Source: Acidobacteria bacterium RIFCSPLOWO2_12_FULL_54_10
GTDB lineage: Bacteria > Acidobacteriota > Terriglobia > 2-12-FULL-54-10
NCBI GenBank assembly: GCA_001767075.1
Contig: MEKX01000157.1
Span: forward strand, 59,249-104,618
Length of the DNA: 45,370 nt
Direction: 5' to 3'
Shown: positions 3,552 through 29,957 of the stretch, piece after piece
How positions within the stretch are numbered: position 1 is the stretch's first letter
How the letters are laid out: each line of letters begins with the position of its first letter
Position numbers and translations under genes: made by a program
The notes under the pieces: generated by a model
What the model saw: the letters and a program-made list of their open reading frames with translations, nothing else
Database searches by the model: none
Told to the model about the DNA's origin: nothing

Positions 3552-4717
3552 GTGTCCTCAAGATACTGAACGTCATCGGATGTCGGCCGAATTTTATCAA
3601 GATCGCGCCCTTGATAGCCGAGATGAACAAACACCCGGAGATCGACCCATTCCTTGTGCACACAGGCCAGCATTATGACGAAGCGATGTCCGATGTATTT
3701 TTTCGCGACCTGGAGATCCCTCAGCCGGATGTCTGCTTAAACGTCGGCTCGGGATCCAATCCGGGCCAGATGGCACGGATGATGCAAGGCTTGGAGGCGG
3801 TCTTGGCGGATATCAACCCAGACCTGGTGCTCGTGGTCGGGGATGTAAATTCCACCACTGCCAGCAGCCTGACCGCTGTCTCGCTTGGCTATCCTGTGGC
3901 CCATGTTGAAGCCGGGCTCCGCAGCTTCGACCGAGAAATGCCGGAGGAAATCAACCGTGTGGTGACCGATGCTCTCTCCGACTTCCTGTTCGCCACGGAG
4001 ACTAGCGCGGTGGAAAACCTCCTGCGCGAGGGAAAGCCACAGGAGCGGATATTCTTTGTCGGGAATGTGATGATTGATACGCTTGCGATGAATACCGAAA
4101 AGATTGCACGTTCCACCATACTTCAGGAGTTGGGACTGAGCCCCCATTCCTATGCAGTGGCGACGCTGCACAGGGCCTCAAACGTGGATGACCCCAACGC
4201 CCTGGCGCAGATTGCCGAAGCTCTGGGGGATTTGCAGCAACACATCCGGCTGGTTTTCCCGATCCATCCCCGAACGGCGCTTCGGCTGCACAGTCTTCGA
4301 AGCTGGCAGCAGCTTGCCTCCCTGCCCAACATCCTGGCCGTGAAACCTCTCGGTTATCTCGATTTCATCAAGCTGACGAAGGAATCCATGTTTGTACTGA
4401 CGGACTCCGGTGGCGTGCAGGAAGAATCCACCTGCCTCGGTGTCCCGTGCCTGACATTGCGGAAAAACACCGAGCGCCCTGTAACGATCACACAGGGCAC
4501 GAACCAACTGGTGGGAACCAAGCACGAAGAGATCCTCGAAAAGGGATTGCAAATTCTTAACGGAACGATTTGCCGCGGCCGGATTCCTGAGAAATGGGAC
4601 GGTCAGGCCTCGATGCGAATCGTTTCCGTGCTACTGCAAGAATCTGAAATGATCAAGCGAATGTACGGCGGTGTCCGCGAGAGGGGAATATGCCTGGATA
4701 TGCTGAGCCGGGGATAG
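3548..4717 (+). CDS. wecB: UDP-N-acetylglucosamine 2-epimerase (non-hydrolysing)
   Basis: 389 residues. It interconverts UDP-GlcNAc and UDP-ManNAc in the cytoplasm, supplying ManNAc-type residues to the polysaccharide. Family signatures are present throughout: HTGQHYD near the N-terminus, GDVNSTTAS, HVEAGLRSFDREMPEEINR, HRASNVDD, FPIHPRT and TDSGGVQEE. The usual N-terminal GTRPE is GCRPN here. The ATG at 3548 overlaps the deacetylase stop as ATGA and is preferred over an in-frame ATG at 3512, which would add 12 unrelated residues. It overlaps the next gene by 28 bases. Confidence 0.92.
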   Translation: MSVLKILNVIGCRPNFIKIAPLIAEMNKHPEIDPFLVHTGQHYDEAMSDVFFRDLEIPQPDVCLNVGSGSNPGQMARMMQGLEAVLADINPDLVLVVGDVNSTTASSLTAVSLGYPVAHVEAGLRSFDREMPEEINRVVTDALSDFLFATETSAVENLLREGKPQERIFFVGNVMIDTLAMNTEKIARSTILQELGLSPHSYAVATLHRASNVDDPNALAQIAEALGDLQQHIRLVFPIHPRTALRLHSLRSWQQLASLPNILAVKPLGYLDFIKLTKESMFVLTDSGGVQEESTCLGVPCLTLRKNTERPVTITQGTNQLVGTKHEEILEKGLQILNGTICRGRIPEKWDGQASMRIVSVLLQESEMIKRMYGGVRERGICLDMLSRG

Positions 4718-6000
4718 CCCCGGCCACCTTTTCTACCGCAGACATATATGTTGGGCGGAAGGACCGATTGGTGGGGCCCGTTCTTTCCTATAGTTTGTTG
4801 CTCTTATTCTTCTTCTTGTTGTATTCCCAATTGCCATTATTAATCCCCGCTTTGCAAGGGCTTCGGCTCGTATATGCGGTGGGCGGAGCCGCCATCGTTG
4901 CGGTGCTGGTCGAAAAAATGTTGTCGCACGGTGGCTGGGAACTTGTCTGGCCGGAGAGCTATCTGCTGCTGGGCTTGTTGGCAGCCGCGGCAATCTCCTG
5001 TTTCGGCGCGCTCTGGCCACGCTACGCTGTCGACAACACTTTGGATTTGGCCAAGGCAGTGGCCTTATCTCTAGTCCTGCTCAGTAGCGTGAACAGCACC
5101 AGACGCCTTCGCGTTTTGATCTGGTTCATGGTCCTCGGAGGACTTTTTCCCGCCTTGGGAACATTGAGAAATTACTTCCAAGGAAATCTGATGGAGGGAG
5201 GCCGCGCGGGTTGGGTCGGCATTTTTGCGAACCCGAATGAGCTGGCCTACAGCCTGGTCCTGCTGGTTCCGCTGGCTATCTCTCTTGCCGCGGGCGTTCC
5301 TCGTTGGGTGGTTGTTTTGTTGGGGGGAATTATTGCCACCTATATCGCAGCCATTTATGTTTCGTTTTCCCGTGGTGGGATGATCGGGTTGCTGGCGGTA
5401 TTGGCCGTGATTGGCTTGCGGGGGAGGAGTATTCCCGTCCGCGTATTGATGATTTTGCTTCTCGCCGCAAGCCTGGCTTTCATCGCACAGGGATGGTCCC
5501 GGGATGAGGGATTTACTCAACTCGGCACGGATGCAAATTTTCGGGAGCGGCTGGCCACCATGCAGGCTGGATTCGCGATGTTCGCGGATCACCCGATCTC
5601 CGGCGTGGGTCTAGGTTGTTCCGTGATCGCTTGGCCACTGTACGCGCCACCGGATGTACATGCCAGACGCTGGCTGGTGATCCACAACACCTTCCTACAG
5701 TCTCTCAGTGAGACGGGTATCGTAGGTTTCCTCTGCTTCACGTTGCTGCTCGGAGCGGCCCTCCACGACGCTCGGGAAATCACGCGCCGCGGTCCTGAAT
5801 CCGGATCGGGGGACTCGGCCCAGTTGGCCGATGGTCTCGGCAAGTCACTCTGGGGATTTGTGGTTTGCGGCTTATCTGGCGGATTCATTCTCAGCTGGTT
5901 TCCTTACATTCTTGTTGGAGCTGTTTCGTCCTTGAAGAAGATCACGAAGGAATCTTCGCCTGGAGCACCGGCAGGGCAACCACGAGGTCTCTATGACTAA
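4690..6000 (+). CDS. O-antigen ligase/polymerase family membrane protein (Wzy-like)
   Basis: 436 residues with about ten or more hydrophobic segments, starting with LLLLFFFLLYSQLPLLI near residue 35. The central IFANPNELAYSLVLL and the large periplasmic loop ending in HNTFLQSLSETGIVGF match the Wzy_C / O-antigen ligase superfamily. It is an inner-membrane protein expected to polymerise or ligate undecaprenyl-linked repeat units. A strong ribosome-binding site (GAGAGGGG) precedes the ATG. It lies next to a flippase gene, which favours a Wzx/Wzy pathway. Polymerase and ligase roles cannot be separated from sequence. Confidence 0.85.
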   Translation: MPGYAEPGIAPATFSTADIYVGRKDRLVGPVLSYSLLLLFFFLLYSQLPLLIPALQGLRLVYAVGGAAIVAVLVEKMLSHGGWELVWPESYLLLGLLAAAAISCFGALWPRYAVDNTLDLAKAVALSLVLLSSVNSTRRLRVLIWFMVLGGLFPALGTLRNYFQGNLMEGGRAGWVGIFANPNELAYSLVLLVPLAISLAAGVPRWVVVLLGGIIATYIAAIYVSFSRGGMIGLLAVLAVIGLRGRSIPVRVLMILLLAASLAFIAQGWSRDEGFTQLGTDANFRERLATMQAGFAMFADHPISGVGLGCSVIAWPLYAPPDVHARRWLVIHNTFLQSLSETGIVGFLCFTLLLGAALHDAREITRRGPESGSGDSAQLADGLGKSLWGFVVCGLSGGFILSWFPYILVGAVSSLKKITKESSPGAPAGQPRGLYD

Positions 6001-25871: not shown

Positions 25872-26264
25872 ATGCAACTGCAACAACAGAACATCCAGAC
25901 CTGGTCCTCTTTTCACCGGATGTACCTGGAAGCAAATCTCACATATGAAGTGACACAGGAAAGAGGGTATTGTGTCGCTCGACTCAGGTCTGTGGAGTAC
26001 CGGGAAGCTCCTCCGGTTCCCGTGGCGCCATTGAAACCGTGCAAGACTCTAGCGAAGGTCATTCCATTTAAGTCTGTGGAGTACTTAGAAGCTCCTCCTG
26101 TACCCATGACGGCCTTGGAACCGCGCAAGCAGCTAGCGAAGGTCATTCCATTTGATCAGCCTGAACGTCGCACCCGCGTTTCGATGGAAGAAGACGAAAT
26201 ACGGAAAGTGTTCGACCATCTCGCACAGCGGGAATTTCCTCCCTCTCGCACCACCGGAACCTGA
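25872..26264 (+). CDS. small protein with two 28-residue tandem repeats
   Basis: 130 residues, soluble, with no signal peptide. AAGGAG about 11 bases before the ATG supports translation. Residues 39-66 and 67-94 are two copies of a Pro-rich unit sharing SVEY, EAPPVP and LAKVIPF. The C-terminal tail is charged and probably helical (SMEEDEIRKVFDHLAQ). I recognise no family. It begins 41 bases after the large secreted protein gene and is probably in the same transcript. Beyond the repeat no function can be proposed; the Pro-rich units could be short binding linear motifs. Confidence 0.6.
   Translation: MQLQQQNIQTWSSFHRMYLEANLTYEVTQERGYCVARLRSVEYREAPPVPVAPLKPCKTLAKVIPFKSVEYLEAPPVPMTALEPRKQLAKVIPFDQPERRTRVSMEEDEIRKVFDHLAQREFPPSRTTGT
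25986..26153 (+). repeat. 84-bp tandem repeat, two copies
   Basis: Copy 1 is 25986-26069 and copy 2 is 26070-26153. They begin with AGGTCTGTGGAGTAC or AAGTCTGTGGAGTAC, and both end with the same CTAGCGAAGGTCATTCCATT. The copies encode the 28-residue protein repeat in frame and have diverged mostly in the middle. Confidence 0.85.
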
Positions 26265-26431: not shown

Positions 26432-27835
26432 TTAGATCGAATTGGCGAGGGGAGGCGGCGTTCCGGAAGAAGGCTGTTTAATCTGCCATTTTTTTAGTTT
26501 GTTGAGCAAGGCTTTATAGCAGACGCCTAGCTCTCGAGCGGCTCGCTTGCGGTTCCAGTTGGTCTCCCCCAACATTCGAAGCACCATCTCCTTCTCTGCT
26601 TGTTCGGCGGCTTGGGCGGAGATATCCTTTAGCAAATGGCCCTTGGGCGGCGACGGACTGGGTGATGCGCCGGACCCATTCAATTCGGAGAGTACCAGGT
26701 GAAGGTCGGGCAAAATCAGATAGCGTTTGACGGTGTTCTCAAGTTGGCGGACATTGCCCGGCCAGTTATAGTGAATACACGCCTCTAGCAGTTCTGCGGG
26801 CAGTTGATCGAGTGAACTGCCGAATCGGGTGCGATATTTTTGAAAGAAATAATTGCAGAGAACGGGAATATCATCCCTTCTTTCGCGGAGGGGTGGAATC
26901 TCGATTTGAATTACATTGATTCGGTAATAAAGATCCTCCCGGAACTCCCCCTTGGCAACCGCCTCAGTGATCCTTCGGTTGGTCGAAGCCAGGATTCGGC
27001 AATCGACCCGGATAGAACGCTTTCCTCCCAGGCGGGTGAATTCCCCGTCCTGAAACACGTGCAGCAGCTTGGCCTGCAAATGCGGACTCATTTCCGCAAT
27101 TTCATCCAGCAGGATGCAGCCTTTACTGGCCAGCTCGAATTTCCCCGGCTTTTCCGAGAGCGCGCCGGTGAATGCGCCGCGTTCATAACCAAAAAGCTCG
27201 GATTCCAGCAAATCATTCGGCAAAGCGGCGCAGTTTACCTTGATAAAGGTCTTGTCTTTGCGCCGCGATTGATCATGGATATAGCGAGCCACGACCTCCT
27301 TCCCCACGCCGGATTCGCCTAGAATCAACACGGGCACATCGGCGTCGGCGACTTGTTTTGCGATTTCCTTGATCTGCAAAATCTTCGAGTTCGTGGAAAA
27401 GAAATCCGTGTCATCGCCCGACTGATCGAGTTGCTGGTGCAGGCTCTTGATCTCATTCTTGAGCTGCTGCTTCTCCAGCACGTTGCCGATAGCAAGCTCC
27501 AGTTCCTCTTCTTCAAAGGGTTTGACTAGATAATCGGCAGCGCCCATTTTCATCGCTTCCACGACCCTGCTGACTTGGCCCACCCCGGAAAGCATAATCG
27601 CGGAGATGGGAGAACCCTGGTTCCTGGCCTGCGCCAGAACTTCGATGCCGTCCATCCCGGATAACAGCAGATCGAGGATGACAATGTTCGGAGAGTATCC
27701 GCTCGCCAGCCGGGCGATTGCCTCCTCGCCGGAGCCGACGCCTTGAACAGTGTATCCGCGGGAGGAGAGGAACCGTATCAGATATGTGCGGGTACTTTCG
27801 TCATCCTCAACTACCAGAATCGTTCGTTTGTTCAT
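26432..27835 (-). CDS. NtrC-family sigma-54-dependent response regulator
   Basis: 467 residues with three domains. The receiver (1-120) has acidic residues 10-12, phospho-acceptor Asp55 and Lys105. The AAA+ sigma-54 activation domain (about 148-385) has the Walker A motif GESGVGKE (173-180), the sigma-54 contact loop GAFTGA (220-225) and Walker B LLDEI. The C-terminal Fis-type helix-turn-helix lies around NWNRKRAARELGVCYKALL (about residues 430-450). It should activate RpoN promoters by ATP hydrolysis after phosphorylation. Its ATG directly follows the kinase stop codon (TAGATG), so the pair is translationally coupled. Four strict -24/-12 motifs in nearby intergenic DNA are candidate targets. 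Confidence 0.93.
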   Translation of the reverse strand: MNKRTILVVEDDESTRTYLIRFLSSRGYTVQGVGSGEEAIARLASGYSPNIVILDLLLSGMDGIEVLAQARNQGSPISAIMLSGVGQVSRVVEAMKMGAADYLVKPFEEEELELAIGNVLEKQQLKNEIKSLHQQLDQSGDDTDFFSTNSKILQIKEIAKQVADADVPVLILGESGVGKEVVARYIHDQSRRKDKTFIKVNCAALPNDLLESELFGYERGAFTGALSEKPGKFELASKGCILLDEIAEMSPHLQAKLLHVFQDGEFTRLGGKRSIRVDCRILASTNRRITEAVAKGEFREDLYYRINVIQIEIPPLRERRDDIPVLCNYFFQKYRTRFGSSLDQLPAELLEACIHYNWPGNVRQLENTVKRYLILPDLHLVLSELNGSGASPSPSPPKGHLLKDISAQAAEQAEKEMVLRMLGETNWNRKRAARELGVCYKALLNKLKKWQIKQPSSGTPPPLANSI

Positions 27836-28987
27836 CTAGATTCTCTTCGCCTCAAGGGCGGGTAAACTGACAAAGAAACCGACACCCGATTCATCTTTAT
27901 TCGAAACCGAAATTCGACCTCCATGCGACTGGATGATTTCTCGGATCATGGAGAATTCGGTACCGAGGCCATCGCCAGCGCCTGGTCTCGATCTGCCGGA
28001 CAAGTTGGTGCGTCGTGAGACGGTATCCACGAACTTCGGGGGGATTTCTGCCCTCGCGTCAGAGATCCTGACGGTGATAGTCTCCTTGTCATGATTAGAT
28101 AACTCCACGAAAAGTTCCGCCCCCGGATCTGCAAACTTGATGGTATGGGAAAAGATCTCGGCCAAAACCTCCATCAGCATCTCCCTGTCTCCTGCGACCA
28201 GCAGGGGCTCTGGGGGTATCCGCTCCGTAATCCGTAGGGACTTCGCCTGGGCACGAGGCTTCAGTATTCCGCGAGCTTCCTGCCATAGGTCGCGCACATC
28301 CATCGTCTCCAAGCACAGCGACTGGCTCGTGGCCGCGGCCAGCAGGTCGTTGAGCAGGTGGATGGCGCGGGTGGTATTCTCCGCAACGATGGACAGGTAT
28401 TCGCGTTGTGTGCTATTGATGGGCCCGGCACGTTCTTCCAGGACCATCTTGGTGTAGCCTCGAATGGAAACGAACGGCGTACGCAGGTCATGAGCGAGAT
28501 CCGCAATCAGCTCAGCTTGACTCTTGTTGTGAGGCTCGGCGTTGCTCTCCGCCGGAATTGAGTTCAATGAGGCTGCTTCGCCCTCAGCGCCGCCTGGCTG
28601 GGATTCGATCCTCGCGATGTCGTGTGGCTCAACCGCCTTGTGCATCTTGGCCACCCCAACGAAAAAGGTTTGCGGAAGACCACCAAAGTCCCTGAATAAG
28701 AGGACCCGCCTGAAAAGAGTAGCACGGTTGCTTGTTCCATTCAATGCGGCGGATCGGGATCTGGCCACCACCACAGCTCTCCCAACTGCAAGACAGTGCC
28801 TAAGTTGTAGAAAACCCAAGCTCAGCTCCGAACGGTCCGCGGGAGTGTAGTCGCGGGACGATGCGCGTTGGATTGCCAAGGCAGCCCTCCTCACGGTCAG
28901 ATTCTTGGAGCCTTCGCCATACCATCGCATCTTTCTTGCATTGATCCGAGGCTTGATCTTGCCGGTCATCCTCGATGTTGTGATCAT
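27836..28987 (-). CDS. histidine kinase with degenerate ATP-binding motifs, partner of the NtrC-type regulator
   Basis: 383 residues. An unrecognised N-terminal region (1-155) precedes a HisKA domain with an intact H box, AHDLRTPFVSIRGY (His166). The HATPase-like domain is unusual. The N-box position reads EIFSHTIKF, without either usual Asn. The G1 box reads SDARAEIPP, without the usual DxGxG. The G2-like segment GDGLGTEFSMIREIIQSHGG is kept. It may be a weak kinase, a phosphatase or a docking partner. The ATG at 28987 overlaps the stop of the zinc-ribbon gene as ATGA and is preferred over longer starts (TTG 29092, ATG 29050) that would overlap that gene. No membrane segment is evident. Confidence 0.8.
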   Translation of the reverse strand: MITTSRMTGKIKPRINARKMRWYGEGSKNLTVRRAALAIQRASSRDYTPADRSELSLGFLQLRHCLAVGRAVVVARSRSAALNGTSNRATLFRRVLLFRDFGGLPQTFFVGVAKMHKAVEPHDIARIESQPGGAEGEAASLNSIPAESNAEPHNKSQAELIADLAHDLRTPFVSIRGYTKMVLEERAGPINSTQREYLSIVAENTTRAIHLLNDLLAAATSQSLCLETMDVRDLWQEARGILKPRAQAKSLRITERIPPEPLLVAGDREMLMEVLAEIFSHTIKFADPGAELFVELSNHDKETITVRISDARAEIPPKFVDTVSRRTNLSGRSRPGAGDGLGTEFSMIREIIQSHGGRISVSNKDESGVGFFVSLPALEAKRI

Positions 28988-29127
28988 CGTTTCCCGGTCA
29001 ACTCCATCTTTTCCGTATTTGCGCGCAACCGTTCTCCGCAATGAATGCATTTGCGCTTCCACGTGGGAGTGGCCAAGTGACAATGTTCGCAATAAATATG
29101 CTCGATAGCTTGTGCCGCAGCTTCCAT
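28984..29127 (-). CDS. 47-residue zinc-ribbon microprotein
   Basis: A short frame on the minus strand encodes 47 residues with two Cys pairs, YCEHC (13-16) and KCIHCGERL (27-30), giving a CxxC-x10-CxxC zinc-ribbon pattern followed by a basic tail. A strong Shine-Dalgarno run (GAGGAAGGGGG) lies upstream of the ATG, and its TGA overlaps the kinase ATG as ATGA. Those three facts make it a convincing gene despite its size. It is the first gene of the operon with the kinase and the sigma-54 activator. I infer a metal- or redox-sensing or protein-interaction role in that signalling pathway; nothing in the sequence proves it. Confidence 0.78.
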   Translation of the reverse strand: MEAAAQAIEHIYCEHCHLATPTWKRKCIHCGERLRANTEKMELTGKR

Positions 29128-29166
29128 CACTAATTTCCCCCTTCCTCAGCGACTTGCATAAGTTTA

Positions 29167-29183
29167 TGGCATCCCGAATGCCA
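29167..29183. promoter_or_regulatory. perfect inverted repeat / near -24/-12 element before the regulator operon
   Basis: TGGCAT and ATGCCA flank five bases, forming a perfect palindrome 40 bases before the zinc-ribbon ATG. Read on the minus strand it is also a near match to a sigma-54 promoter (GG and GC correctly spaced, but ATGC in place of TTGC). It may be an operator or a weak -24/-12 promoter for autoregulation. Confidence 0.4.
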
Positions 29184-29502: not shown

Positions 29503-29518
29503 TGGTACTTTACTTGCA
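29503..29518 (+). promoter_or_regulatory. sigma-54 (-24/-12) promoter
   Basis: TGGTACTTTACTTGCA matches the RpoN consensus TGGYAY-N5-TTGCW at every specified position. Transcription would start near 29529, and the next ATG is at 29565 with AAGGAG before it. It lies on the opposite side of the intergenic region from the NtrC-type regulator operon, which is the obvious candidate activator. Confidence 0.78.
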
Positions 29519-29564: not shown

Positions 29565-29957
29565 ATGCGAAAGTTTCTCGCAACGTTCGTAGTGTTGTTT
29601 GGGCTTCCGGGAATCGCCTGCAGCCAGCAACCCGATAGCTCGACGGCCCAACAGCAATCTCAACCCGCACAAGAGGAAGCTTATTCTCAATCAGCCCCCG
29701 CAGAACACGTGGCAGTCACAGAGATCGCCGAAGGCAAGCTTTCCAAAGTAGACACACAACAGCAGCAAATTTGGATCAAAACACAGGATGGCAAGGAAAT
29801 GCAGTTCAGTTTCGACAAGGACACCAAAGTGGAAGGCGCCGAAGGTACTGTGGAAGGGCTGGCCAAGATGAGCGGAAATGATTTGAAGGTACACTACCGG
29901 TCGGCCGCTGGAGTCAATACTGCAGTGAAGATCGAAGTTCTGCCCAGCACTGCCTAA
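29565..29957 (+). CDS. small secreted protein (Gln-rich N-terminus, DUF5666-like core)
   Basis: 130 residues. A signal peptide (MRKFLATFVVLFGLPGIACS) ends in a possible lipobox-like GIAC, although the -3 residue is not the usual Leu. A Gln/Ser-rich linker (about 21-50) leads to a small beta-rich domain with GKLSKVDTQQQQIWIKTQDG and LKVHYRS. That pattern resembles OB-fold-like DUF5666 proteins. It is expected in the periplasm or outer envelope; function is unknown. It is the only gene on this transcript, is preceded by a strict sigma-54 promoter and a good ribosome-binding site, and is followed by a GC-rich hairpin. Confidence 0.72.
   Translation: MRKFLATFVVLFGLPGIACSQQPDSSTAQQQSQPAQEEAYSQSAPAEHVAVTEIAEGKLSKVDTQQQQIWIKTQDGKEMQFSFDKDTKVEGAEGTVEGLAKMSGNDLKVHYRSAAGVNTAVKIEVLPSTA

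Follow-up and report, generated by a model that had tools for sequence, protein, structure and literature searches.

Genes of the operon and their surroundings

The window analysed here, meaning the whole 45,370-nucleotide stretch of acidobacterial DNA, carries on its minus strand a microprotein gene followed directly 3' by a gene for a histidine kinase (HK) with HisKA and HATPase_c domains and then by a gene for a sigma-54 response regulator (RR). These genes and the features around them are:

26432..27835, minus strand: sigma-54 response regulator with receiver, AAA+ domain with GAFTGA and Fis-type HTH; begins directly after the kinase stop
27836..28987, minus strand: frame of the histidine kinase, 383 aa when counted from the overlapping ATG, with HisKA and HATPase_c at about residues 157-377 (from about 28519 down)
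28984..29127, minus strand: 47-aa zinc-ribbon microprotein gene, ATG at 29127 and TGA at 28986-28984, with Cys13, Cys16, Cys27 and Cys30
29137..29147, minus strand: Shine-Dalgarno region GAGGAAGGGGG
29167..29183, minus strand: TGGCATTCGGGATGCCA, inverted repeat TGGCAT-N5-ATGCCA with GG-N10-GC spacing, beginning 56 nt before the microprotein ATG
29503..29518, plus strand: good sigma-54-type promoter TGGTACTTTACTTGCA, 62 nt upstream of the divergent gene that starts at 29565
29565..29957, plus strand: divergent gene for a 130-aa secreted-looking protein of no recognised family

Read on the minus strand from 29127 to 28984 the microprotein frame translates to MEAAAQAIEHIYCEHCHLATPTWKRKCIHCGERLRANTEKMELTGKR, 47 codons and a TGA stop, with the cysteine spacing C13-x2-C16-x10-C27-x2-C30. 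The first-pass annotation had described a 47-residue CxxC-x10-CxxC frame at this place without giving a strand and the frame is indeed present on the minus strand; the plus strand of 28984-29127 holds neither a gene nor such a frame, and a plus-strand reading was rejected on that ground. The strong Shine-Dalgarno sequence that had also been claimed is borne out by gaggaagggggaaattagtgATG, the layout 5' of the frame being GAGGAAGGGGG-AAATTAGTG-ATG. The TGA of the microprotein overlaps the in-frame kinase ATG as ATGA at 28984-28987. The operon is flanked in the window by the divergent gene for the small secreted-looking protein and by a hypothetical ORF, and its upstream neighbourhood is a polysaccharide cluster. 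A plus-strand ORF of 130 aa at 25872-26264 has an internal repeat (SVEYREAPPVPVAPLKPCKTLAKVIPF / SVEYLEAPPVPMTALEPRKQLAKVIPF) and matches no family above cut-off.

The microprotein is conserved in a second genus and is under purifying selection

Two further family genomes encode homologues, G002 with two copies and G003 with one, at whole-genome E-values of 2e-10 to 2e-8, and a fifth member of the set that includes the window sequence came from one Solibacteraceae genome (L014). These five sequences, the window peptide, the G002 operon copy, the G002 paralogue (L007), the G003 copy (L006) and L014, align without gaps over the core and share the invariant residues C13, C16, L18, T20, P21, W23, C27, I28, H29 and C30, giving the signature C-x2-C-x-L-x-T-P-x-W-x3-C-I-H-C in which all four cysteines are kept. 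Over the 28-codon core pN is 0.27-0.50 against a pS of 0.61-1.08. When the window is compared with the G002 operon copy, the DNA similarity runs from two bases before the ATG to the last CxxC, so what has been conserved is the coding frame. A purine-rich, Shine-Dalgarno-like stretch lies before the ATG in four of the five homologues, the window included; the start of the G002 paralogue is less clear.

In order to judge how readily such a frame arises by chance, ORFs of 30-80 aa were searched for C-x2-C-x10-C-x2-C, and one was found in the window, which was the only real sequence on that side of the test, against none in 60 order-1 random sequences of the window's length. Loss of the cysteine pairs or of the frame in relatives with the same operon had been named beforehand as grounds for giving up the gene; both are conserved in the second genus and the frame therefore stands. 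The window microprotein is a genuine, easily overlooked gene under purifying selection.

Its distribution is narrow. In its own genome (2.95 Mb, 173 contigs, 88.6% complete) the microprotein is unique except for weak matches to unrelated zinc ribbons, one of which (E=0.0025) is a zinc ribbon on an RDD membrane protein; RadA was considered as the relative behind the second own-genome match and rejected, since that match is the zinc-ribbon/RDD membrane protein. Among class genomes outside the family a homologue was found in 1 of about 392, and in the Solibacteraceae-type family in 1 of 150 genomes, while the phylum search gave nothing but a large Ser/Thr kinase with a zinc ribbon. For class and phylum 16 candidates were scored per genome, a depth at which a rare and distant member could escape notice. 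The viral contigs searched contained no relative and a viral origin was rejected on this basis. The microproteins are thus of a known kind, and the family that they form is new, very small and seen in a few uncultured Acidobacteriota.

Fold and family relationships

No curated Pfam or NCBIfam family matched the peptide above cut-off, the best being DZR at 17.3 against 27.3 bits, and the other homologues also fell below. The best NCBIfam matches had E-values of 0.0057-0.1 and lay far under their cut-offs. The best sub-threshold matches to CxxC...CxxC ribbon families (PF12773 DZR, PF18912 DZR_2 and PF13240) had E-values of 0.003-0.06; however, the peptide has one ribbon only, and it scores under their gathering thresholds.

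The AlphaFold model has a pLDDT of 74.5 overall and 87-89 over residues 11-30, and its core can be fitted to RanBP/NZF knuckles with an rmsd of 0.7-0.9 A for 24-26 residues. The Foldseek matches are mostly such knuckles together with eL40 and combine a small rmsd with E-values that are all above 1. The C4 knuckle pair is alike in the zf-RanBP/NZF domains of Nup153, ZRANB2 and TRABID, at an identity of mostly 15-30%, although there the knuckle is part of a larger eukaryotic protein with several domains, whereas the window finger stands alone. Since knuckles of this kind bind either proteins or RNA, the ligand cannot be read from the fold. By fold and by phmmer archaeal ribosomal eL40 (47-51 aa) is weakly among the top matches, with all E-values above 0.1, and the tails are basic (Lys/Arg-rich) across the homologues, with a net charge of +2 to +8 and of +2 in the window peptide.

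The N-terminal C4 finger of RadA/Sms (TIGR00416) has identical spacing, C-x2-C-x4-P-x-W-x3-C-x2-C, and hhalign places the family profile exactly at this finger in E. coli RadA with a probability of 39% and an E-value of 3e-4 for the single comparison. RadA itself has a RecA-like ATPase and a Lon-protease-like domain, whereas the window peptide has neither, ends 17 residues after its last cysteine and scores 11.4 bits against a TIGR00416 cut-off of 403. As no RadA above cut-off was found in the family genomes, the likeness rests on E. coli RadA. The rubredoxin-type domain of LapB was also tried and was rejected at a probability of 1%. Our best reading of the sequence and model is that of a putative C4 zinc knuckle, RanBP/RadA-like, which stands by itself and has a basic tail.

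Linkage of the microprotein to the kinase and regulator genes

The order zinc peptide, kinase, regulator is repeated in G002, with 45% identity between the kinases over residues 143-379 and 72% between the regulators. Here the operon lies between ligA upstream and sixA/CHAD downstream (names given by eye from the translations), so that the three-gene unit has been kept despite different flanks, and this is the strongest sign of a functional linkage. In both of the family genomes with a close kinase (E<1e-30) the peptide gene lies immediately upstream of it; the other five family genomes gave no kinase match at that threshold. The description of a hidden zinc-ribbon microprotein heading a kinase/sigma-54-activator operon thus holds in a second genus for the frame, the cysteine pairs and the gene order, and two operon copies are known, in the window and in G002.

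The peptide had further been called dedicated and coupled to the kinase, which is not supported. Three copies are free of the kinase: the G002 paralogue (L007) sits alone between unrelated genes, the G003 copy (L006) precedes a VWA protein gene and then a receiver-like protein gene, and the Solibacteraceae copy (L014) precedes a sugar-isomerase-like gene away from any kinase. Conversely, beyond the family the peptide is absent beside the orthologous kinase/regulator pairs of L052, L055-L059 and others, and at the class-level loci L052 and L055-L060, with regulators of 57-65% identity and related kinases, no CxxC-CxxC frame lies upstream on the operon strand. Because there are both kinase-free homologues and kinase/regulator loci that lack it, the peptide does not go with the kinase alone, nor does the kinase require it, and the kinase-free homologues show that it has some kinase-independent use or other partners. 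None of the neighbour genes examined was recognised as metal-related.

At the G003 locus the VWA-domain and receiver-like proteins that follow the zinc peptide lie at about 970-2600 on the minus strand of L019 (G003:C33), and a close second copy of the receiver-like protein lies at 4625-5044 on the plus strand. The Solibacteraceae peptide is preceded by a 90-aa protein with DnaJ-type CxxCxGxG repeats (L014/L016).

The literature yielded no description of this arrangement of microprotein, kinase and regulator. The nearest system for the larger two genes is PrsK/PrsR (PEP-CTERM/EPS, PMC1569441), likewise a histidine kinase and sigma-54 regulator near polysaccharide genes; however, the window regulator scores 360.9 bits against the PrsR family TIGR02915, under the cut-off of 502.6, and the transmembrane sensor region of PrsK has no counterpart in the window kinase. 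For the pairing of a small protein with a kinase the closest likeness is to the DUF1127 proteins, which are often under 50 aa and bind and regulate PhoR (PMC12501420), a contact that was demonstrated experimentally whereas here the association is one of gene order.

The window kinase has no recognised sensor domain and a degenerate ATP site

The similarity of the window kinase to that of G002 starts only at about residue 143. The coding signal of the kinase frame is 0.03 bits per codon in residues 1-145, compared with 0.21 in the remainder, and is negative around 28830-28680, with about the first 110 codons not clearly coding. The peptide and kinase genes of G002 lie at least 147 nt apart, and in the window later in-frame starts exist, for example the ATG at 28645. 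Given the weak early signal, these later starts and the G002 gap, the ATGA may not be the kinase start, and the true start in the window may lie downstream at a codon such as ATG 28645. The overlap claimed at first is a feature of the window sequence that is absent from G002, and its role as the kinase start is doubtful.

The region between the peptide and HisKA could not be aligned between the window and G002 above shuffles. Neither kinase has a GAF domain or a recognised sensor domain. The kinases of the relatives without the zinc peptide carry about 200 aa N-terminal to HisKA, which at the orthologous locus L052 (kinase 42% and regulator 64% identical) give a weak GAF_2 match (E=0.0035). 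A GAF remnant between peptide and HisKA was sought by six-frame search with a profile of the relatives' N-termini, L052 included in part, and none was found; the idea that the peptide is itself a detached N-terminus of such a kinase was rejected since the relatives' N-termini have no CxxC pairs.

The description of the kinase as cytoplasmic calls for caution: no membrane domain was recognised in it by Pfam, but the N-box and G1 box of its ATP site are degenerate while the phospho-acceptor histidine is intact. The His box is intact in all kinases of the alignment. The ATP site is intact in G002 (NLLSNSIKF, DTGVGI, GLGVGL) and degenerate in the window (27836-28519, minus strand; EIFSHTIKF, DARAEI, GLGTEF), where the N-box Asn and G1 Gly are lost, and it is degenerate also in the relatives L055-L057 and L059. 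Judged from these motifs the window kinase may be inactive, and on account of the degenerate site it may act as a phosphatase, a scaffold or an acceptor.

Candidate sigma-54 sites

Upstream regions were scored with an approximate -24/-12 matrix of our own making, on which 150-nt shuffles reach 6.9 bits at their 95th percentile. The best site before the G003 peptide is TGGCACGCTATTTGCA, 79 nt from the ATG at 20.4 bits, a textbook sigma-54 promoter and one of 12 such strict sites in the G003 genome. The two operon copies have weak sites with the correct GG-N10-GC spacing, TGGCATTCGGGATGCC at -56 in the window (7.0 bits) and TGGTACTCAGCGTGCC at -67 in G002 (6.6 bits), and the G002 paralogue and the Solibacteraceae copy have none upstream. 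The pattern TGGYAY-N6-TGC occurs within 100 nt upstream of three of the five homologues (P about 6e-6 at its density in the sequences examined), an enrichment that is suggestive only because the pattern was picked after the sites were seen and the pooling with G003 was post hoc. The perfect inverted repeat in the window is a candidate that may serve as promoter or operator, and the divergent gene at 29565-29957 is likely a target of the adjacent sigma-54 regulator, judging by the promoter-like sequence before it. Taken as a group the upstream sites suggest that the peptide is made under the same or a similar sigma-54 activator.

Strict sigma-54-like sites are concentrated on the window's contig (G000 C157), which has 6 of the genome's 21 on 3.5% of the genome length (P=7e-5). 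Three lie in the window (29503, 33053 and 41923) and three at L107 (2116 minus, 2490 plus and 6883 minus), the latter preceding an MBL/PilZ-like gene, an M48-type peptidase and a glycosyltransferase-like membrane protein.

Possible roles of the microprotein

We favour, at a probability of about 0.38, a role for the peptide as a structural-zinc adaptor that would dock on the kinase (or the kinase-regulator pair) to tune its output, linked to sigma-54. The four cysteines would bind one Zn(II) structurally, and the small adaptor, working by protein contact, may in these lineages stand in partly for the GAF-like N-terminal domain of orthologous kinases elsewhere, and its production under the same or a similar sigma-54 activator would provide feedback. 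Supporting this are the homologues, the selection on them, the Shine-Dalgarno sequences, the random-sequence test, the linkage kept through changed flanks, the kinases without GAF, the knuckle fold, the sigma-54 sites and the DUF1127 precedent. Against it stand the restriction to two operon copies, the kinase-free homologues, the degenerate ATP site of the window kinase, the weak sigma-54 sites of the operon copies and the basic tail, which fits nucleic-acid binding equally well.

The main rival, which we consider somewhat unlikely, is a small zinc ribbon, like the stand-alone eL40 or ZRANB2 knuckles, that binds nucleic acid, the ribosome or RNA polymerase and belongs to the sigma-54 regulon, sharing the operon without touching the kinase. 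The charge of +2 to +8 on Lys/Arg-rich tails, the weak placing of eL40 among the top matches, the kinase-free contexts and the textbook promoter of the G003 copy would all be expected on such an account, although the window peptide is at the lowest of these charges, zinc-knuckle folds do not predict their ligand and no eL40 E-value was below 0.1. An improbable alternative is a metal or redox sensor, in which oxidation of the CxxC pairs or a change in the metal that they hold would switch the kinase directly. The two invariant CxxC pairs and a kinase that lacks a recognised sensor domain speak for it, but a C4 knuckle of such close spacing is as a rule a structural site, the invariance of T-P-x-W and of I-H suggests a fixed fold or interface, and both the kinase-free homologues and the lack of recognised metal-related genes among the neighbours examined argue against it. 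We give very little weight to an upstream leader peptide, of which the translation and not the product would control the kinase by coupling or Cys-dependent attenuation: the frame is short, directly upstream and overlaps as ATGA in the window, yet selection acts on its amino acids at non-Cys positions also with silent sites saturated, the overlap is replaced in G002 by the gap of at least 147 nt, and the paralogues have no kinase. A chance or artefactual ORF, for which its shortness might speak, is refuted by the conservation across genera, with selection and the random-sequence test also against it.

The structural-zinc adaptor can be carried one step further, into a version that we hold to be doubtful, in which the kinase of this acidobacterial family lost a fused GAF-like sensor and a separately encoded, sigma-54-controlled zinc knuckle would serve as a detachable input or feedback subunit even where, as in the window, the ATP site has decayed. 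If true, the small proteins that tune histidine kinases would gain a soluble zinc-knuckle class, and the sigma-54-type promoters make the idea testable. At present the microproteins are a small and narrowly distributed family with a putative role, and a clear case of a conserved protein of about 50 aa that lies before a two-component system and is matched by no curated model above cut-off.

A fused analogue of ribbon and kinase was seen in the phylum genome G404 (L073), where a zinc ribbon, CPRCGHMTPGGKGYCIHCG, is joined N-terminally to a Ser/Thr kinase with TPRs.
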